Source of the DNA: Acidobacteriota bacterium
Lineage (GTDB): Bacteria; Acidobacteriota; Vicinamibacteria; Vicinamibacterales; 2-12-FULL-66-21
Length of the DNA: 34,080 bases
NCBI GenBank assembly: GCA_013362195.1
Contig: JABFWM010000098.1
Coordinates: forward strand, 1-34,080
Direction: 5' to 3'
A model generated the notes under the pieces. It was not told the origin of the DNA and did no database searches. It saw nothing but the letters and a program-made list of their open reading frames with translations. How positions within the stretch are numbered: the first letter of the stretch is position 1; every line of letters starts with the position of its first letter. This document shows positions 18,966-28,334 of this stretch, piece after piece. A program made the position numbers and the translations under genes.

Positions 18966-19700
18966 TTAACGCGGCGGCGCCTCCCGGTACGGCGTTGGAT
19001 CCTCCACGCCGGCTTCCCTGAACGCGTCGCGGCGCTCGCGGCACTTGCTGCAGCGGCCGCAATGCTGCCCGCCCGACGGCTGCATACACGACAGCGTCAG
19101 CTCCAGCGGGACGCGGAGCGCGACCGCTTTCCGAATCACGTCGGCCTTGTGCAGGGACGCGAACGGCGCCTCGATGCCGATCGGATGCGCGAGTCCGAGC
19201 GACAGCGCCCGCGCCATCGCGGCGAAGAACTCCGGCGTCGCGTCGGGAAAGGGATTGCCGGCCAGCGGACCGATGGCGACCCGCGAGATGCCGGCGCGCG
19301 CCATGTACACGGCGGCCTTCGAGAGCAGGATGACGTTGCGCCCGTCGATGAACACGTCCTCGTCGGGGGTGTCGAAGGCGGGCGGCTCACCGCGCACCGC
19401 CCAGTGATGGGAGGGGAACACGTCGCGCATGTCGAAGTGCAGGTGCACGAGCGGCGCGACGCGGTCGCGCATCGGCAGCGCGTCGAGGAACCGGGCCGCC
19501 ATCGCCTGCTCTTCCTTCTCCCACGCGAAGCCGACGCCGACGTAGATCGGCGCGACCTTGCTCGTCCGCGCCGGCGGGCGCTCGGGTGGATCGCCATCCG
19601 TGACGGCGTCGCCGCCGGCAGCGGCGACTGCGACGAGGACGGCGCTGTCGAGCCCACCCGAGAAAAGCACCGCGGTATAATCCGCAGGATCGACGGTCAC
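18966..19700 (-). CDS. queC: 7-cyano-7-deazaguanine synthase (QueC) family protein
   Basis: PP-loop LFSGGLDSAV; C-terminal zinc site LSCMQPSGGQHCGRCSKCRERRDAF. Confidence 0.85.
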   Translation of the reverse strand: MTVDPADYTAVLFSGGLDSAVLVAVAAAGGDAVTDGDPPERPPARTSKVAPIYVGVGFAWEKEEQAMAARFLDALPMRDRVAPLVHLHFDMRDVFPSHHWAVRGEPPAFDTPDEDVFIDGRNVILLSKAAVYMARAGISRVAIGPLAGNPFPDATPEFFAAMARALSLGLAHPIGIEAPFASLHKADVIRKAVALRVPLELTLSCMQPSGGQHCGRCSKCRERRDAFREAGVEDPTPYREAPPR

Positions 19701-19724
19701 ACGTTCACCACATCACGAGCATCC

Positions 19725-20129
19725 ATGTACCTCGTCACGAAACGCATCGAGTTCTGCTACGGCCACCGCCTGCTCGACTACGACGGCGTCTGCAAGCACC
19801 CGCACGGCCACAACGCTTCGGTCGAAGTGGAGGTCCGGACGGATCGCCTGGACAACCGGAACATGGTGGCGGATTTCAGCGACATCAAGCGCGTCGTCAA
19901 AGGGTGGATCGATCGCGAGCTGGATCACAAGATGATCCTGCGGCAGGACGATCCGCTGGTGAAGCCGATGAAGGAGCTCGGCGAGCCGATGTACCTGCTC
20001 GAAAGCAACCCCACGGTCGAGCGGCTCGCGAAACTCATTTACGACAAGGGCCGCGAACTCGGCGTCGACATCGTCGCCGTGCGCATCTGGGAGACACCGA
20101 CATCGTTCGCGTCATACTCCGAGAACTGA
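19725..20129 (+). CDS. queD: 6-carboxytetrahydropterin synthase (QueD) family protein
   Basis: FCYGHRL, KHPHGHNASVEVEV and IWETPTSFASY motifs; divergent partner of queC. Confidence 0.87.
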   Translation: MYLVTKRIEFCYGHRLLDYDGVCKHPHGHNASVEVEVRTDRLDNRNMVADFSDIKRVVKGWIDRELDHKMILRQDDPLVKPMKELGEPMYLLESNPTVERLAKLIYDKGRELGVDIVAVRIWETPTSFASYSEN

Positions 20130-20257: not shown

Positions 20258-21694
20258 CTACTTCTTGAAAGGCGCCTCGTACGAGAAGTAGGCGAGGATG
20301 CCGGCACTCGACGATCCTGCCGTCCACGAGATCGGGACCGCCGCCCCGATGATGATTTGGGTGTCGGCCGCGAGGTTCCACCCGCCGCGCACGCCGGGTG
20401 CGAGGACGAACGTGCGGTCGCGCTCCGTCGCGCGGCGTCCGTCGCGCACGACTTCCTGCTGATCGAACGTCAACACCGACTCCAGCATCACGTGCAGCAT
20501 CGGCGCGGCGCGATAGATCGCGCTTCCGGCAAGCTGCGGCACGACCAGGTTCGGGCGGTTCGACCGGTGCGTCCACGTCATGCCGCCGTTCCAGTGGAAA
20601 TAGAGGTCGTCGCGCTGTTTGCTGAACGGCAGATTGAACTGCAGGCCGGTCGAGCGATCCGTCCGGGCGGTCGGGACAATGGCGCTGAGGCGCGGTGAGA
20701 ACGCCGGCCGTCCGGGCCCTTCTTCCAGCAGCTGCAGGCGGTAGTTGACCAGCGTGTCGCCAAGACCTTCGGCGCCGCCCATCGACGAAAACGGAATCGT
20801 GTAGGACACCTGGTGACGCACACCCGTGACCGGCCATTCCTGCGTGAAGGTCAGGAACCAGTCGCCGTCCTGATGCATCCAGTTGACGATGTTCTGGAAG
20901 GTGCCGGGTTCCTGGTTGAACGCTTCTTCGACCAGGAACGAGTTGTCGGTAATGTCGAATGGCTCCTCGACCGGCGGCGTCTGCGCGCTGGCGCCGACCG
21001 CACTCGCGATCCACAGGCACACCACCCCGATGGCCTGCACGAGCACCTTCGAGGCCGCGCGCGCACCAATCGTGATCTCGCGCCTGCCGCGGCCGCGCAG
21101 CCGGACGCTGTCGGCGGCGGCGTCTCGCTCCTCGACGCTGACGCGCTGCCCCGGCTTGAGATCGTGGCGCTCCACGAAACGCAGGAACTCGCTGTCCTGA
21201 TCGGTGACGCGCCGGATGGTGACCGGCTCGTGCAGCGGGCACGTCATCAACGTGTCGTACTCGGGCCGGGTCACGGTGCCGTCTGCATCGGGAATCGGAT
21301 CGCCATGCGGATCGGCCGACGGCCGCCCGAGCATCTCGTCCATCAGTTCGATCAGCCGATCCGAGACCGCGTGCTCGAGGTGCTCCGCTTCGTCGTGCAC
21401 CTCCGCCCAGCTCATGCCCATCACGTTGACGAGGAAGAGCTCGATGAGCCGATGGCGCCTGAGCACCAGCGCCGCGAGCTTCTCGCCGGCCTTGGTCAGG
21501 CGCACGCCCACGTACGGCTCGTAGCGCACCAGGCCTGACTCGGCCAGGGTCTTGACCATCGTCGTCGCGGTGCCCGGCGTCACGCCCAGCGCGGCGGCGA
21601 GCTGTCCCATCGGCACGAGCGCGGGCGTATCGCCCGCCGTCTGCGCCTGGAGAATGGCCTTCAGGTAGTTCTCGACGGTTGGACTGGCAGCCAT
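20258..21694 (-). CDS. MntR/DtxR-family metalloregulator fused to a signal-like hydrophobic segment and outer-membrane beta-barrel-like domain
   Basis: One uninterrupted ORF: HTH GQLAAALGVTPGTATTMVKTL, metal/dimerization VHDEAEHLEHAVSDRL, FeoA-like SH3 domain, then QAIGVVCLWIASAVGASAQTPP and ~230 aa of amphipathic strand-rich sequence. Confidence 0.82.
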   Translation of the reverse strand: MAASPTVENYLKAILQAQTAGDTPALVPMGQLAAALGVTPGTATTMVKTLAESGLVRYEPYVGVRLTKAGEKLAALVLRRHRLIELFLVNVMGMSWAEVHDEAEHLEHAVSDRLIELMDEMLGRPSADPHGDPIPDADGTVTRPEYDTLMTCPLHEPVTIRRVTDQDSEFLRFVERHDLKPGQRVSVEERDAAADSVRLRGRGRREITIGARAASKVLVQAIGVVCLWIASAVGASAQTPPVEEPFDITDNSFLVEEAFNQEPGTFQNIVNWMHQDGDWFLTFTQEWPVTGVRHQVSYTIPFSSMGGAEGLGDTLVNYRLQLLEEGPGRPAFSPRLSAIVPTARTDRSTGLQFNLPFSKQRDDLYFHWNGGMTWTHRSNRPNLVVPQLAGSAIYRAAPMLHVMLESVLTFDQQEVVRDGRRATERDRTFVLAPGVRGGWNLAADTQIIIGAAVPISWTAGSSSAGILAYFSYEAPFKK

Positions 21695-21719
21695 TTGAAT
21701 TCGATGATAGTCTAAGATT

Positions 21720-21741
21720 TGATTTTGAGTCGTCAAAATCA
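21720..21741. promoter_or_regulatory. candidate operator: perfect 9-bp-arm inverted repeat TGATTTTGA-GTCG-TCAAAATCA
   Basis: In the 68-bp divergent intergenic region between the MntR-like fusion (start 21694) and the multicopper oxidase (start 21763). Confidence 0.62.
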
Positions 21742-21762
21742 GCTTGGCACCAGGGAGCGTGT

Positions 21763-22827
21763 ATGGCCCCGACAGTTGGTCTCACCCGCCGTGCATGGAT
21801 GCGGCTCGTCGGCGCCGGCGCGGCCGCCGCGGCACCGCTGGCGCGGTCGCCCCACGGCGCCGCCGCGCAGGGGAGCGGTCCCGGCGCGCCGCCGCCGCTG
21901 CCGCACGCCGCCCACGCGATGGGCCCGGTCGGGCGCGTGACATCCGACGCCATCAACCCGACGGCCTTTCTCCGGACCTGGAACTTCGCCGATCTGCCGC
22001 CCGAGAAGCGTGCCGAGTACTACCGCGAAACGCGCCGGCCCGACGGGTCGTTGCTGCGCGAGTACCGGCTCGTGGCCGTCGACCGCGAGATCGAGATCGC
22101 GCCCGGCGTGTTCTTCCCGGCCTGGACGTTCAACGGTCAGGTGCCCGGACCCACGCTGCGCGCGACGGAAGGCGATCGCGTCCGGGTGACGTTCGTGAAC
22201 GAAGCATCGCATCCGCACACCATCCACTTCCACGGCTGGCACCCTCCCGAGATGGACGGCTCGCTGCCGGAGCATCAGGTGGTGCCGGGCGGGCAGTTCG
22301 TCTACGAGTTCGACGCGGACCCGTTCGGGCTGCACTTGTATCACTGCCACGCGGCGCCGCTGAAGCGTCACATTCACAAGGGCCTTTACGGCGCGTTCAT
22401 CGTCGATCCGCGCGGCGGGCGCCCGCCCGCCGATGAACTCGTCATGGTGATGAACGGCTTCGACACGAACTTCGACGCCGATAACGAGGTCTACGCGGTC
22501 AACACCATCGCGCATCACTACACGCACGAGCCCATCGTTGTCGGCGTCGGCGCGCTCGTCCGCCTCTACGTCGTCAACGTCACGGAGTTCGATCTCGTCA
22601 ACAGCCTGCATCTCCACGGGATGTTCTTCACCGTGAACCGCACCGGCACGACCCTGACGGGCGGCGAAGTCACCGACACGGTGATGCTCTGCCAGGGCGA
22701 GCGCGCGATCCTCGAGACGCGTTTTCGATTTCCCGGCCTCTTCATGTTCCACGCCCATCAGAGCGAGTTCGCGGAACTCGGCTGGATGGGCCTGTTCGAA
22801 GCCGTGGGGGTGCGTCGTGATACCTGA
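21763..22827 (+). CDS. two-domain multicopper oxidase-type protein with TAT signal
   Basis: TAT-like LTRRAWMRLVGAGAAAAAP; copper motifs HTIHFHGWH, LHLYHCHAAPLKRHIHKG, LHLHGMFF, FMFHAHQSEFAELGWMG. Confidence 0.88.
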   Translation: MAPTVGLTRRAWMRLVGAGAAAAAPLARSPHGAAAQGSGPGAPPPLPHAAHAMGPVGRVTSDAINPTAFLRTWNFADLPPEKRAEYYRETRRPDGSLLREYRLVAVDREIEIAPGVFFPAWTFNGQVPGPTLRATEGDRVRVTFVNEASHPHTIHFHGWHPPEMDGSLPEHQVVPGGQFVYEFDADPFGLHLYHCHAAPLKRHIHKGLYGAFIVDPRGGRPPADELVMVMNGFDTNFDADNEVYAVNTIAHHYTHEPIVVGVGALVRLYVVNVTEFDLVNSLHLHGMFFTVNRTGTTLTGGEVTDTVMLCQGERAILETRFRFPGLFMFHAHQSEFAELGWMGLFEAVGVRRDT

Positions 22828-24028
22828 AACGACTCGTGACGCGCCGTCGCCGCGCCAGCGACTGTGGGTTGCCGCGGTGATTCCGCTCGCCGCGCTTGCC
22901 GTGCTGCTCGCCGCCCTCGTGTTCGTCCGCCCCGCGGATCGACTGCGCGGCGTCGGTGTGCCGCCGGTCGAACGGCTCACGGTCGAGCGCACCGTCCTCC
23001 GCCCCGGCGGCATCCTGCTGTCGATCCTGAACGATGGGCCGGATCCCGTCACGATCGCTCAGGTTAGCGTAGATGACGCCTACTGGTCGTTCACTGCGGA
23101 TCGGGGCACGACGCTGAAGCATCTCGGGCGTACGCAGCTGACCATTCCTTACCCGTGGGTCGACGGGGAAGCGCACACCATCAAGCTCCTCACCTCCACT
23201 GGCACCGCGTTCGAACACGAGGTAGCGGTTGCGACGCCGACCCCGCAGCCCGACGCGCAGTATTTCGTGACGTTCACCCTCATCGGCCTCTACGTCGGCG
23301 TACTTCCGGTTGCGGCGGGTCTTCTCTGGTTTCCGTTCATGCGACGCCTCGGCCGAACGGGTCTCGACGTGCTGCTCGCGCTGACCGTCGGACTGCTCGT
23401 CTTTCTGCTCGTCGACACGACGCACGAAGGCCTCGATGCCGCCGCTCGCCTGCCCGACTCGTACCAGGGCGTCGCGCTGTTCGCCTCCGGCGCCGCGGCC
23501 GCGTATCTGGTGCTCGAATGGGTCGGAGCCGTGCTTCGCACGCGACGCACGCACGAGCGGACGGCCGGCGCACCGGGCGCGATCCTCGCGCTGCTCGTCG
23601 CCATCGGCATCGGCCTGCACAACCTTGGCGAAGGGCTGGCGATTGGCGCGGCGTTCACGCTGGGCGAGGCGGCACTCGGCACGCTTTTGATTGTCGGCTT
23701 CACACTGCACAACACGACCGAGGGGCTGGCCATCGTCGCGCCGCTCGCACGGGAGCGGCCGCCCTTGGCGATGCTGCTGCGGCTCGGGCTGATTGGCGGC
23801 GTGCCCACGATCGCCGGCGCATGGATTGGAGGGTTGTTCTATTCTGCGGTCCTCGGCGTGCTGTTCCTCGGCCTCGGCGCCGGGGCCATCGCCCAGGTCG
23901 TCCTGCAGATCTCGCGACAGATCGCCGGACCACAGACCATCGGCGAGCGGCTGACGTCCGTCCCGGTCCTCTCCGGCCTCGCAGCGGGGTTCGCGGTGAT
24001 GTATGTCACCGGGATGCTGGTCGGGTAA
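22817..24028 (+). CDS. ZIP-family metal transporter with N-terminal extracytoplasmic domain
   Basis: ZIP motifs IGLHNLGEGLAIG and FTLHNTTEGLAIV; TM anchor plus ~100-aa beta-rich segment before the ZIP helices; overlaps the oxidase gene by 11 bp. Confidence 0.85.
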   Translation: MIPETTRDAPSPRQRLWVAAVIPLAALAVLLAALVFVRPADRLRGVGVPPVERLTVERTVLRPGGILLSILNDGPDPVTIAQVSVDDAYWSFTADRGTTLKHLGRTQLTIPYPWVDGEAHTIKLLTSTGTAFEHEVAVATPTPQPDAQYFVTFTLIGLYVGVLPVAAGLLWFPFMRRLGRTGLDVLLALTVGLLVFLLVDTTHEGLDAAARLPDSYQGVALFASGAAAAYLVLEWVGAVLRTRRTHERTAGAPGAILALLVAIGIGLHNLGEGLAIGAAFTLGEAALGTLLIVGFTLHNTTEGLAIVAPLARERPPLAMLLRLGLIGGVPTIAGAWIGGLFYSAVLGVLFLGLGAGAIAQVVLQISRQIAGPQTIGERLTSVPVLSGLAAGFAVMYVTGMLVG

Positions 24029-24032
24029 CACG

Positions 24033-24425
24033 ATGACGATGGTGAGCAGATCCGTTCGCGGTCTGGCCATTGGCGCTGCCGCCCTCGCCATCGCGGCGAT
24101 GATTCCGATCATGGGGCTGAGCCGCGAAAGCGAACGTGAGCTTCGGATCGCAGTGATCGATCGCGCGTTCTATGTCGATGGACGGAGCGACGCGAACCCG
24201 ACGCTGACCTTGCGCGCCGGCGAGCGGGTGCGTCTGGTGCTCCGCAACAACGACGGCGGGATGAAGCACGACTTCACCATCCGCGCGTGGGGCGTTGCCG
24301 TGCCGCCGATTGACGGGCGCGGCGAGCGCGCGATGACGTTCCGCGTTCCCGAGACACGCGGCGCGGCGGTCTATAACTGCACGCCACATCCGGTCTCGAT
24401 GCGGGGGACGATCATCGTCGAATGA
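24033..24425 (+). CDS. membrane-anchored cupredoxin-like protein
   Basis: N-terminal TM; copper ligand pattern MKHDFTI...YNCTPHPVSMRG (H...C-x2-H-x3-M). Confidence 0.78.
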   Translation: MTMVSRSVRGLAIGAAALAIAAMIPIMGLSRESERELRIAVIDRAFYVDGRSDANPTLTLRAGERVRLVLRNNDGGMKHDFTIRAWGVAVPPIDGRGERAMTFRVPETRGAAVYNCTPHPVSMRGTIIVE

Positions 24426-25150
24426 TGCGGCCGCGCCTCAGCGCCTCCCTGGCGACACCCGAAGGCAAGGCGCGGTACGTTCGCGGCCTCTTCGCGACGA
24501 TCGCCGATCGCTACGATCTCATCACCCGCGTCCTGTCGTACGGCCTCGACGGTTCGTGGAAGCGGCGGCTTGCGGCGATGACCGATCCCGCGCCGCAGCG
24601 CGCGCTCGACCTGGCGTGCGGGACCGGGGACATCGCGTTCGCGCTTCGCGATCGCGGGCATGCCGTCGTCGCACTCGACATCACGGCCCGCATGATCGAG
24701 CTGGCCGCCGCCCGCGCCCGCCGATTGCAATCCTGTCAGTCGCTGACGTTTCTGATCGGTGACATGACAGCCTTGCCGTTCGCGGGCGCGAGCTTCGATC
24801 TCGTGACCACCGGCTACGGACTGCGCAACGTGCCGCGGCTGCAGCCCGCCATCGACGAGATCCGCCGCGTGCTGCGGCCTGGCGGACTGCTGCTGTCGCT
24901 CGACTTCGATCGGCCGGTGTTTGCGCCCGTCCGCTGGATCTACCTCGCGTATTTGACGCTGGTCGGCAGTGCGCTCGGCGCGCTGTTCCATGCCGATCCC
25001 GATACCTATCGCTATATTCCTGAATCGATCAAGCGCTACCCCGGCGCATCGGAAGTGTCGCGCCTGCTGGAGGACAGCGGGTTCACGTCCTGTGAGGTGG
25101 TGCCCGTGCTGGGCGGTCTGCTGGCGATCAACACCGCACGACGCATTTGA
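24422..25150 (+). CDS. UbiE/MenG-type quinone methyltransferase
   Basis: ADRYDLITRVLSYGLDGSWKRR, ALDLACGTGDIA, TTGYGLRNVPRL; ATGA overlap with the cupredoxin gene. Confidence 0.87.
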   Translation: MMRPRLSASLATPEGKARYVRGLFATIADRYDLITRVLSYGLDGSWKRRLAAMTDPAPQRALDLACGTGDIAFALRDRGHAVVALDITARMIELAAARARRLQSCQSLTFLIGDMTALPFAGASFDLVTTGYGLRNVPRLQPAIDEIRRVLRPGGLLLSLDFDRPVFAPVRWIYLAYLTLVGSALGALFHADPDTYRYIPESIKRYPGASEVSRLLEDSGFTSCEVVPVLGGLLAINTARRI

Positions 25151-25424: not shown

Positions 25425-28334
25425 GTGAATGTAGCGGATCCGACAGTCTGGTGGGATAACGGCGTGAATTTGCTCGATTCATTGCTGGACGCGATCGTCC
25501 GCCTCGATGGCGACGCGCTGGTGATGCACGTCGGCGAGAAGCCGTACGTCGTCACCACGTCCGCGGCCATGAACGAGTTCCGCGGGCCGCTCGCATGGGG
25601 ACAGGTCGAACTGTCGTCGCGTGTGCTGACGTCCGAAGCCGTGCTCGGGATGCTCGGGCAGATCCTGCCGCTCCAACTGCGCCAGACGCTCGAGGAATAC
25701 GGCGCGGTCGAACACGAGGTTGCGGCGTACAACACGGCCGATCGCTTCACCGCCATCGCCGCGCGCGGCGGCGACGACGTGTGGCTCGAGTTGAGCAGGC
25801 ATCGTCCCGAGCCGGTGCAGCCCGCCGTCGAGGAAGGGCCTGCACCGCCGGCGGAGGAGGACGCAGCGGTTGCGGCAGACTCGCCGGGCGCCCCCGCGGT
25901 TCCAGCTGCTGCCGCCGAGGGCCCCGCACTCATCGAGGTCGCGGCTGGCGGTCACGTCCCCGCAGCGATGGACGTTCCAACCGTGCATGTTCCCGAGCCC
26001 GCGGCGATCGAAGTGCCGCCCGTTGCGGAGCCTGCACCGATCGAGAACGCGGCAGACGACGATGCCGCAGCGGTGGAGGGCGAGGTTCCCGCCTTCGCTG
26101 AAGCGCCCGCAACGCTTGACGTTTCGCAAGCGAACGCTCAGGCATCCCCGCCGATGGACGTTGCGCCGTCTCACATCGAGAAACCGGTGGACGTGGCGCC
26201 GGTGCCAAGTGAGCAACCGGTATTCGCTGATATTGCGGTGGAGATCGAGGAGCCCGCCGCCGAGCACGCCCGCGCGGACGCCGAGGAGCCCGTCGCTCGG
26301 CCGCCCGAGCGCCTCGAAGAGCGCGCAGTAATCGAGACCGGTCCAGCACACGGCTTCGAGTCCGAATCCGTCGAGCCCGTCCAGGTACCTCCTCAAGAAC
26401 TGGTGGCCGTTGCCGACGCGTTCTTCCCGGCCACGCCCGCCGCGGCAGATGCCGTCGCGGCGGAGGAAGACGAAGTCGAACTGGCGTTCGGTCAGGTAGT
26501 GCCCGCCGTGCCGCCCTCTGCTGCCGCGGCGGCGGAGCCGGAGGCGCCGTTCGAAATCGTTCAGGAGGTTCGCCAGGACGCGCCGACCGATGACGATGTA
26601 GATGCGCTGCTCGCGGCGAGCGCTGCCGCGTTGCTGCAGAGCGCGCCGGTCTCGCACGCGCCAATCGACTTTGACCATTTGCCGCTGCCTCCCGTCGAGG
26701 AAGCACCCGAAATCGCCCGGGCGTTCGATGTCGAGGCGGCGCTCGCGCCCGCGCCGTTCGTCGCGCCAGCCGACGCGGCGCCGATTGCGCCGCACGAAGC
26801 GCCTGGCCGCGCGGTCACGCAGCCGCACGAAGCCAGGCCGGCGCAGGCGCCCATTCCATCGAGCCCGCTCGGTGATCTAGAATCGCCTGCGATCGCGCAC
26901 GAGGCGATCGATCTCATCCCGCCTCCACAGCCGGAACCCAGGCCGGCCGCCGCTGAAACCGAACCGCAACCGGTTGCGCTCGCCGCCGAGTCCCCGTCGG
27001 CCGCGGTACCGCCGGAAGTCGTTCACGTTGTCGAAAGAGAGACGCACGCCATTCCAGCCGTCACGTTCGATACGCGTGCGCCACAACACGAGCCTGCCCC
27101 CGTTGTGGCGGAAGCCGAACCCCAGCCCGTCACCCTCGCTCAGCAGCCCACGGCCGAGCGCGCGGTGATCCTGCCGCTTTCGCGGCGCCAGATCCGTCAG
27201 GAGCCGTCGATCCCCGCGGCGCCGCATGCGACGCCCGTGCTGTCGATCGACGAGCTGCTCCGTGTGGCCGCGGCCCGCGGCGCGTCCACCGTCTATCTCG
27301 TCGCGCAGTCGCGTCCGATGGTGCGGGCCGACGGCGAGATCAACGTGCTCGAGATCGGCCGCGGCACGCCGCTGGCGGAAGCCGACCTCGATCGGCTGAT
27401 GCTCGACATGGCGCCAGCCGGCGCGCGTGAAGCCTGGCAGCGCGGCCTGACCGCCGAGTGGATGTGCGACGTCGCCGATGTCGGACGCGTCCGCTGCATG
27501 ACGTTCCGCGATCACCGCGGCCCGGGACTCATCTTCCGGATGCTCCCGCCGCAGGCGATCTCGGCGGACCAGCTCGGGCTCACCGCCGAAGTGCAGGCGC
27601 TCTGCGCCCAGTCGGATGGCCTCGTGCTGATCACCGGCCCGCGCGCGAGCGGCAAATCGACGCTGATGGCGTCGTTCGTCGATCTGATCAACCGCACGCG
27701 CAGCGATCACGTGGTCACGATCGAGTCGCAGATCGGGTTCGTGCACGAGAGCCGGCGCTCGTTCATCAGCCAGCGCGAAGTGCGCGAAGGCGAATCCGTC
27801 GCCGCCGGCGTGCGATCGGCGCTCCGCGAGGATCCGGACGTCCTGTTCATCAGCGATCTGCGGTCGCCGGAAACTGCCTCCGCGGCGGTTGACGCGGCCG
27901 AATCCGGGCGGCTCGTCGTCGCGTCGCTGCCGGCCGCATCGACCGTGGCCGCGGTCGATCGCATGCTGGAGCTGCTGCCGGGCGGCCGCCGGGCGCAGGC
28001 GCAGGCGGCGCTCGCCGCTTCCTTGCGCGGCGTTGTCGCACAGGTGCTCGTCCGCCGCGTCCGGGGCGGCCGCGTCGCGGCGCGCGAAGTGCTGCTGAAT
28101 ACCGCGGCGGTGGCCAGCCTGATTCAGGAAGCGAAGACCGCGCAGCTGCCGCTCGCGATCGAGAGCGGACGCCGGCACGGCATGATGCCGCTCAACGATG
28201 CGCTCGCCGGGTTCGTGCGCGACGGCACGGTGCACGTCATCGAGGCGTACCGCAAGGCGTTCGACAAGCAGGCGCTGCTGACGGCGCTTCGCCGCGACGG
28301 CATCGACACGTCGTTCGCCGAGAAGCTCGCCTGA
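25425..28334 (+). CDS. PilT/GspE-like secretion ATPase family protein with duplicated N-terminal-type domain and long Pro/Ala/Glu-rich linker
   Basis: GTG start; C-terminal GPRASGKST Walker A, TIESQIGFVHESRRSFISQREV, EDPDVLFISDLRSPET; ~450-aa low-complexity linker. Confidence 0.8.
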   Translation: MNVADPTVWWDNGVNLLDSLLDAIVRLDGDALVMHVGEKPYVVTTSAAMNEFRGPLAWGQVELSSRVLTSEAVLGMLGQILPLQLRQTLEEYGAVEHEVAAYNTADRFTAIAARGGDDVWLELSRHRPEPVQPAVEEGPAPPAEEDAAVAADSPGAPAVPAAAAEGPALIEVAAGGHVPAAMDVPTVHVPEPAAIEVPPVAEPAPIENAADDDAAAVEGEVPAFAEAPATLDVSQANAQASPPMDVAPSHIEKPVDVAPVPSEQPVFADIAVEIEEPAAEHARADAEEPVARPPERLEERAVIETGPAHGFESESVEPVQVPPQELVAVADAFFPATPAAADAVAAEEDEVELAFGQVVPAVPPSAAAAAEPEAPFEIVQEVRQDAPTDDDVDALLAASAAALLQSAPVSHAPIDFDHLPLPPVEEAPEIARAFDVEAALAPAPFVAPADAAPIAPHEAPGRAVTQPHEARPAQAPIPSSPLGDLESPAIAHEAIDLIPPPQPEPRPAAAETEPQPVALAAESPSAAVPPEVVHVVERETHAIPAVTFDTRAPQHEPAPVVAEAEPQPVTLAQQPTAERAVILPLSRRQIRQEPSIPAAPHATPVLSIDELLRVAAARGASTVYLVAQSRPMVRADGEINVLEIGRGTPLAEADLDRLMLDMAPAGAREAWQRGLTAEWMCDVADVGRVRCMTFRDHRGPGLIFRMLPPQAISADQLGLTAEVQALCAQSDGLVLITGPRASGKSTLMASFVDLINRTRSDHVVTIESQIGFVHESRRSFISQREVREGESVAAGVRSALREDPDVLFISDLRSPETASAAVDAAESGRLVVASLPAASTVAAVDRMLELLPGGRRAQAQAALAASLRGVVAQVLVRRVRGGRVAAREVLLNTAAVASLIQEAKTAQLPLAIESGRRHGMMPLNDALAGFVRDGTVHVIEAYRKAFDKQALLTALRRDGIDTSFAEKLA

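Follow-up and report, generated by a model that had tools for sequence, protein, structure and literature searches.

In Deinococcus radiodurans, the repressor DR2539 binds an inverted repeat ahead of an Nramp gene and represses mntH in response to both Mn(II) and Fe(II) (PMC3327659). Other described manganese carriers include the outer-membrane channel MnoP, the TonB-dependent transporter MnoT, and the ZIP proteins TmpA and ZupT (reviewed in PMC9334652). In ammonia-oxidising archaea, a two-domain multicopper oxidase, MCO1, is linked to a ZIP-type permease, and the analogy of this pair with the ferroxidase and permease Fet3/Ftr1 has already been published (PMC7785015, PMC5767755); the pair was proposed to take up copper (PMC7785015), while MCO1 is a candidate for hydroxylamine oxidation (PMC5767755). 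Here, a locus that resembles each of these systems in part is described from a 34,080-nucleotide stretch of DNA (the window; contig JABFWM010000098.1), which belongs to an uncultured bacterium of the order Vicinamibacterales (Acidobacteriota). It comprises a gene in which an MntR-type repressor is fused to a predicted outer-membrane β-barrel and, divergent from it, a cassette encoding an exported multicopper oxidase, a ZIP-fold transporter, and a cupredoxin. Comparison with relatives makes it probable that the locus serves to acquire Mn(II), and possibly Fe(II), under the control of MntR.

The repressor part shares about 50% identity with DR2539 over the N-terminal two domains, and in both proteins a lysine occupies the position of Glu11 from MntR (PMC3327659). 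Unlike DR2539, it is fused to a second protein, and no oxidase-ZIP-cupredoxin cassette is described for the Deinococcus system. The archaeal pair (NVIE_000600/000590) likewise combines a two-domain oxidase, possessing T1–T3 copper sites and an axial leucine, with a directly adjacent ZIP-type permease, although this likeness is one of description, and the archaeal system as described has neither the MntR operator, nor the barrel, nor the fusion. The preliminary description of the window had called the module undescribed; given the archaeal precedent, this does not hold for the oxidase-ZIP linkage or the Fet3/Ftr1 analogy, but no repressor-barrel fusion was described in the papers searched. MnoP and MnoT provide a functional parallel for an outer-membrane step in manganese uptake, but they are separate proteins, whereas the barrel here is fused. 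TmpA and ZupT, which import manganese, share the ZIP fold with the transporter, which differs from them in its extra N-terminal periplasmic β-domain and in scoring below the Pfam Zip cut-off. A manganese precedent exists for every transport step, be it through a barrel, a TonB-dependent receptor, or a ZIP protein (PMC9334652).

The source assembly comprises 4.73 Mb in 699 contigs and is 88.9% complete, and its nearest genomes are likewise Acidobacteriota of the Vicinamibacterales. In a Pfam search, the window matched profiles for a DtxR/MntR regulator, for a two-domain multicopper oxidase, and for a UbiE-type methyltransferase, and more weakly for ZIP. The features of the locus are the following:

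20258–21694, minus strand: mntR-barrel fusion gene, 478 aa from the ATG at 21694 (open reading frame, Pfam, relatives, AlphaFold2)
21032–21694, minus strand: MntR/DtxR-type regulator part, aa 1–221, with winged helix, metal/dimerisation domain and FeoA-like SH3 domain
20984–21046, minus strand: internal signal-peptide-like stretch RAASKVLV-QAIGVVCLWIASAVGASA, followed by Q, with a predicted signal peptidase site between the two, after aa 237
20258–20983, minus strand: outer-membrane β-barrel part, Phenol_MetA_deg-like (PF13557), about 12 predicted strands (model strands 265–475)
21723–21738, no strand assigned: operator TTTTGA-GTCG-TCAAAA, a perfect palindrome (comparison with relatives)
21763–22827, plus strand: twin-arginine-exported two-domain multicopper oxidase (Pfam, matches in the Protein Data Bank (PDB), ligand alignment)
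22817–24028, plus strand: ZIP-fold transporter with an N-terminal transmembrane (TM) helix and an extracytoplasmic β-sandwich (motifs, Foldseek)
24033–24425, plus strand: membrane-anchored or exported cupredoxin (type-1 copper ligands His, Cys-x2-His-x3-Met)
24422–25150, plus strand: UbiE/MenG paralogue, an accessory neighbour rather than part of the core (TIGR01934)

All five open reading frames and the three plus-strand junctions were verified: the oxidase and ZIP genes overlap by 11 bp (22817–22827), a gap of 4 bp separates the ZIP gene from the cupredoxin ATG at 24033 (an alternative upstream ATG at 24003 gives an overlap), and the cupredoxin and UbiE-like genes overlap by 4 bp (24422–24425). 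The fusion most likely starts at the ATG at 21694 on the minus strand rather than at a TTG at 21736, and the oxidase is likely to start at the ATG at 21763, immediately ahead of its twin-arginine motif TRRAWMRLVG, rather than at a TTG at 21679. With these corrected starts the two genes do not overlap, and they are separated by a divergent promoter of 68 bp (21695–21762), within which the palindromic operator lies.

The locus was compared with two sets of genomes, mostly metagenome-assembled, in which the relatives' genes were called with a simple custom script: 162 genomes of the Vicinamibacterales, and 80 named genome loci from the Acidobacteriota, Gemmatimonadota, Planctomycetota, Chloroflexota, Woesearchaeota, Patescibacteria, and others. 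The oxidase is present in 48 genomes of the order, and at 74–84% identity in 16 of 60 relatives. Among the named loci, the ZIP gene lies directly 3' of the oxidase gene in all 78 with enough contig, and an MntR-like regulator is nearby in 56. In the Acidobacteriota loci this regulator is divergent from the cassette and a cupredoxin regularly follows the ZIP, while in other phyla the cupredoxin is sporadic; five Gemmatimonadota loci carry the barrel as a separate gene after the ZIP. A search of a viral collection found no relatives. Together, the adjacency of oxidase and ZIP in every testable relative and the open, conserved frame of the fusion argue that the module is conserved beyond chance. 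The suggestion that these genes form a co-conserved metal module, built around a twin-arginine-exported oxidase and a ZIP-fold permease, thus withstood the synteny comparison.

The operator is the single perfect copy of TTTTGA-N4-TCAAAA in the 4.73-Mb genome, and in relatives its arms are invariant while the N4 spacer varies freely. The motif is found in 33 of 37 distinct loci in which MntR and the oxidase diverge. Across the order, 105 of 162 genomes carry one to four sites, whereas a reversed-pattern control occurs in only three; in genomes from other orders, no clear excess of the motif over its control was seen. It is present in 101 of the 134 genomes with this MntR, as read by hand from the order-wide search, versus 4 of the 28 without (p=2e-9, kinship ignored), and in 45 of the 48 oxidase genomes. 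On this comparative support, the palindrome is a putative MntR binding site.

The genes that lie beside the operator in relatives indicate what it controls. Where an Nramp/MntH gene diverges from MntR, the operator stands in the interval that separates them: this is so in G106, G119, G111, G110, G036, and G098, and with one mismatch in G123; these loci are of the type Nramp/MntH-Usp, except that no Usp was called at G036 and G098. In a further four genomes (G085, G087, G088, G089) MntR and MntH point in the same direction with the operator between them, where in G085 it stands ahead of a barrel-MntH-Usp operon, and in nine loci of family f6 it is upstream of an MntH gene unlinked to mntR (L221–L225, L227, L229, L230, L232). 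It also separates MntR from a DtxR/FeoA-FeoB pair (L205, L208), FeoB lying next to it in G101 and G058, and it precedes a stand-alone barrel (L165), a porin-cupredoxin operon (L219), and TonB-dependent receptors named by eye (L039, L216, L231, L239). The presence of the operator at MntH, FeoB, barrel, and TonB-receptor genes suggests that the regulon serves Mn(II)/Fe(II) import. Other genes beside it were noted by eye: small membrane proteins resembling isoprenylcysteine-type methyltransferases (L215, L233, L237), and a SUF-type iron-sulfur operon with an Rrf2-like regulator and HesB-like and SufB-like proteins, just downstream of the operator (L240:1553-3014).

The oxidase-ZIP-cupredoxin cassette occupies the site that MntH holds in relatives, in the same place, at the same palindrome, and divergent from MntR; in G107, the cassette and MntH-Usp stand in tandem. 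An MntH-type Nramp accompanies the oxidase in 7 of 48 genomes, compared with 47 of the 114 others (Fisher p=0.0009, kinship ignored), so that the two are anti-correlated in these genomes, albeit not mutually exclusive. A similar situation may exist in the archaea, as Nitrosotalea has no MCO1 but carries an Nramp protein (PMC5767755), which is reminiscent of the exchange in Vicinamibacterales. Alternatively, the exchange could be a positional coincidence at an insertion-prone site, with the oxidase cassette serving some other purpose. Variable genes do occur beside MntR, for example a haem oxidoreductase-cupredoxin-porin set; yet the operator accompanies the cassettes in either layout, is placed between the two genes where MntH follows MntR, and precedes MntH elsewhere in the genome as well, so that coincidence appears improbable. 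Since in relatives this switch governs the standard manganese importer, the cassette is most likely an alternative route of manganese, or iron, uptake. Of the function first suggested for the locus, namely oxidase-coupled transport or detoxification of manganese, iron, or copper, the shared operator and the exchange with Nramp/MntH therefore favor Mn(II)/Fe(II) uptake and speak against copper handling and detoxification.

The regulator itself is consistent with such an assignment. Its Pfam domains are Fe_dep_repress, Fe_dep_repr_C, and FeoA, the winged helix (PF01325, 46.1 bits) and the metal/dimerisation domain (PF02742, 101.6 bits) both scoring above cut-off. The best PDB fold matches of the AlphaFold2 model are the manganese-dependent repressors 5zr6, SloR, ScaR, and DR2539, with IdeR/DtxR lower, and a sequence search ranks manganese-dependent repressors nearest as well; the closest structure to the MntR part, 5zr6, shares 40% identity with a TM-score of 0.88–0.92, depending on the target. 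All fused copies possess the motif H-D/E-E-A-E-x-L-E-H, with the MntR-type glutamate at the position of Cys102 from DtxR. The regulon is described as probably responding to Mn(II), and possibly to Fe(II), in view of the kinship with DR2539, which answers to both. In several loci (L173, L176, L178, L191, L201) a TAxACT-like -10 box lies about 10–20 nt before the mntR ATG, a position that suggests leaderless or near-leaderless mntR transcripts.

The metal ligands of the oxidase, the transporter, and the cupredoxin are conserved. The oxidase has two cupredoxin domains, of which domain 1 holds the T1 copper with its Cys-His ligands and an axial leucine, and the trinuclear site retains all four of its HxH pairs: HFH, HCH with C194, HLH, and HAH are invariant in all 11 rows of the alignment. 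It is closest to PDB entries 7rab/7rac and 3gdc, to which it is highly similar with the same copper motifs, but whose records state no physiological function. A copper nitrite reductase was rejected, the enzyme scoring 101.9 bits against a TIGR02376 cut-off of 296.3 and retaining the trinuclear ligands. The transporter scores 23.7 bits against the Pfam Zip cut-off of 35.1 (27.4 and 34.7 in relatives), but it has eight TM helices after the β-sandwich, the motifs HNxGEG and HNTTEG, whose HN..EG is invariant at both positions (TM4/TM5) among its relatives, and BbZIP as its best Foldseek match; it is described here as a divergent member of the ZIP fold. Residues 54–137 (about 22976–23227), which form the β-sandwich, lie outside the BbZIP matches and show a weak fold likeness to the archaellum stator FlaG/FlaF. 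The cupredoxin is amicyanin/NirK-like and falls under the Pfam cut-off in the window but over it in L033 and L034; the earlier call is borne out by its type-1 copper ligands H89, C126, H129, and M133, which are invariant in 18 rows.

These protein identities bear on three other proposals for the function of the locus. The first is that iron is taken up with the help of a ferroxidase, as by Fet3/Ftr1: the oxidase would make Fe(III) from Fe(II) and pass it to the permease. The adjacency of an exported copper oxidase and a permease in every testable locus suggests a hand-over of this kind, Fe(II) is sensed by repressors of the DR2539 type (PMC3327659), and feoB adjoins the same operator in two genomes. 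Against this, the permease is no Ftr1 but a ZIP fold with divalent-site motifs, the importer with which the cassette is exchanged is an Nramp, a carrier of divalent ions, and the nearest solved regulators are of the manganese type, all of which makes this mechanism unlikely here. A zinc uptake module, in which the ZIP protein imports Zn(II) and the remaining genes are incidental, has still less in its favor and is very improbable: the best-matching BbZIP structures are described as zinc transporters, and the neighbouring QueC and QueD are zinc enzymes, but zinc uptake is usually controlled by Zur rather than by an MntR/DtxR regulator, and the same operator is found at Nramp genes. Finally, the oxidase might convert Cu(I) to Cu(II), which the ZIP would import or which would thereby be rendered harmless. 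The operon does encode two copper proteins, and MCO1 and its adjacent permease in Nitrososphaera viennensis rise mildly on copper limitation (PMC7785015). One would not expect to find MntH under a copper regulator, however, whereas the regulator here is MntR-like with an operator common to mntH and feoB, and the oxidase does not reach the cut-offs of the characterised copper-resistance oxidases CopA (TIGR01480, 69.2 of 478.95 bits) and CueO (PRK10965, 40 of 525), so that a role in copper acquisition or detoxification has little probability.

Along with the copper response of the archaeal pair and the place of FeoB within the regulon of some relatives, several observations weigh against manganese uptake as the function of the locus. 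The regulator has an asparagine at the position of Asp8 (of the Asp8/Met10 position) from Bacillus subtilis MntR, and its lysine at the Glu11 position is shared with a protein that answers to Fe(II) too; the metal cannot be read from the sequence. Several oxidase genomes also have MntH, making the exchange a tendency, and in its own genome no second operator was found near the fragmentary Nramp genes. The operator pattern was first spotted in the window itself, and the statistics ignore kinship. In addition, the oxidase-ZIP pair occurs in some Woesearchaeota and Patescibacteria, and the sequence gives no reason why taking up a divalent ion should involve O2-dependent oxidation.

The most unusual element of the locus is the fusion of the repressor to the barrel, both of which had been recognized in the preliminary description. 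The frame is full-length and open in 16 of the 162 genomes, in four families; in one of these, G020, a stop codon falls within the match and the frame was then called from a later start. A seventeenth genome, G110, has an in-frame deletion, and in G119 the same MntR and junction are joined to an unrelated porin-like barrel, which brings the total to 18. In G012 and G045 the latter barrel has a gene of its own, and as G119 is nested in a clade of fused copies, it may represent a barrel exchange within an existing fusion. An assembly artefact was rejected, given the presence of the same frame in 16 independent contigs and the one in-frame deletion, and the open reading frame is, on this comparative basis, a genuine conserved fusion. 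Fifteen of 17 fusions accompany the oxidase cassette (p=1.7e-7, kinship ignored).

In the AlphaFold2 model of the fusion (mean pLDDT 81.5), MntR (1–221) is followed by a low-confidence junction (223–242) and about 12 long strands (265–475); the Foldseek rows listed all match the MntR part. PF13557, with a cut-off of 22 bits, scores 20.4 in the window but 24.1 in L033 and 28.0 in L040, and the barrel, as proposed earlier, is a probable outer-membrane component. In all 18 fusions, the join comes directly after the last conserved MntR strand (ITIGxRAASKLLV), and is followed by 15–20 hydrophobic residues and then AxA-Q or a motif closely resembling it. MntRs without a barrel end 5–13 aa past the same lysine (26 aa in one), and the positive charge of the signal sequence is supplied in part by the RAASK of MntR itself, most copies having none of their own past the junction.

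These features also bear on the possibility that the fusion has no function as such, being either an assembly error or a frame from which the barrel is made separately by an internal start. Codons GTG or ATG occur near the junction in most fused copies, and some barrels do stand alone and begin at a start codon of their own. Conversely, no start codon at the junction is conserved across the fused copies, and G002 has none there; the charge comes mostly from MntR rather than from the barrel side; full-length copies span four families and a second barrel type; and the stand-alone barrel of G016 retains an N-terminus, RTASTVLIQ, that resembles the RAASKVLV of MntR. This alternative is considered rather unlikely. 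Shine-Dalgarno sequences were not used as evidence, because the true starts that served as control mostly lack them as well.

The most economical reading, by analogy with known cases, is that signal peptidase probably cleaves the fusion as a polyprotein. FbcH of Bradyrhizobium is a cytochrome b/c1 polyprotein with an internal signal sequence, at which signal peptidase cleaves it. The hepatitis C core-E1 junction is likewise cleaved within one chain at an internal signal sequence (PMC5402940). In both, as here, a cytosolic or membrane part and an exported part share one chain, but neither joins a transcription factor to an outer-membrane barrel. With regard to ancestry, the tree requires at least seven changes on well-supported branches, and an ancient fusion with repeated fission is indistinguishable from repeated fusion. 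The N-terminus in G016 and that of a barrel in G001, MHAPVTIKRVS, which resembles an internal MntR stretch, look like remnants of MntR and would favor fission, although the matches are 11 residues long. G001, of the same genus, keeps this barrel beside UbiE (L163:6163-6999) but lacks the operator and any detectable orthologue of mntR.

The acquisition system favored here might then operate as follows. When metal is sufficient, metal-loaded MntR would bind TTTTGA-N4-TCAAAA and repress both directions, while metal shortage would allow both divergent units to be expressed. Leftward, the single frame would yield MntR joined to the barrel; the MntR part would fold in the cytoplasm, the hydrophobic stretch that follows would act as an internal signal sequence, and signal peptidase would cut between AxA and Q, so that the barrel would reach the outer membrane, there to serve as a channel for metal, and MntR would be left with a membrane tail. 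Rightward, a ZIP-type importer in the inner membrane would be made together with the exported oxidase and the cupredoxin. The latter two may dock on the extra periplasmic domain of the ZIP protein and determine in which redox state metals arrive at the mouth of the transporter, perhaps through oxidation of Cu(I) or Fe(II) as competing ions. More tentatively, it is possible that this one polyprotein leaves the repressor tethered to the membrane and fixes channel and repressor at a 1:1 ratio, and that, with the oxidase, ZIP, and cupredoxin, it forms an unrecognised class of manganese importer that takes the place of MntH, occurs in several phyla, and may include the archaeal MCO1-ZIP pair.

The UbiE-like protein scores 190 bits with TIGR01934 (cut-off 158.35) but does not reach equivalog-level models, and a better-scoring MenG copy is encoded elsewhere in the genome (G000:C644). 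Its gene occurs in about one third of the Acidobacteriota loci, is absent from many oxidase loci, and stays beside mntR even where the oxidase and the operator are absent, from which it is taken to be a neighbour rather than part of the core. Given the second MenG and this patchy distribution, a UbiE-based quinone link, which had been proposed earlier, is not supported as a core function. On the regulator's side, genes for the queuosine precursor enzymes QueC and QueD (window 18966–20129; L079–L116) are found at most Acidobacteriota MntR loci. Beyond the UbiE-like gene lies a type II/IV secretion ATPase (25425–28334), whose N-terminal part is very long and of low complexity and which adjoins the module in several relatives. 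A set of di-haem oxidoreductase, cupredoxin, and porin is found near MntR or under its operator in L203:4302-6891, L204, L219, and L193:184-3447, in the last of which the porin-like barrel is fused to MntR.

The internal signal-peptide-like stretch, the conservation of the fusion, the operator, and the exchange with MntH extend the earlier account of this locus, and together they provide a testable function for a widespread and uncharacterised pair of proteins, the two-domain oxidase and its ZIP partner. Should the archaeal MCO1-ZIP pair be related, the operator and the MntH exchange would point to manganese or iron acquisition there too, rather than to copper uptake or hydroxylamine oxidation. 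The joining of a repressor to a barrel, with two unrelated barrels, would represent an unusual coupling of gene control to the cell surface, and the operator motif allows the regulon to be listed across a poorly cultivated order.

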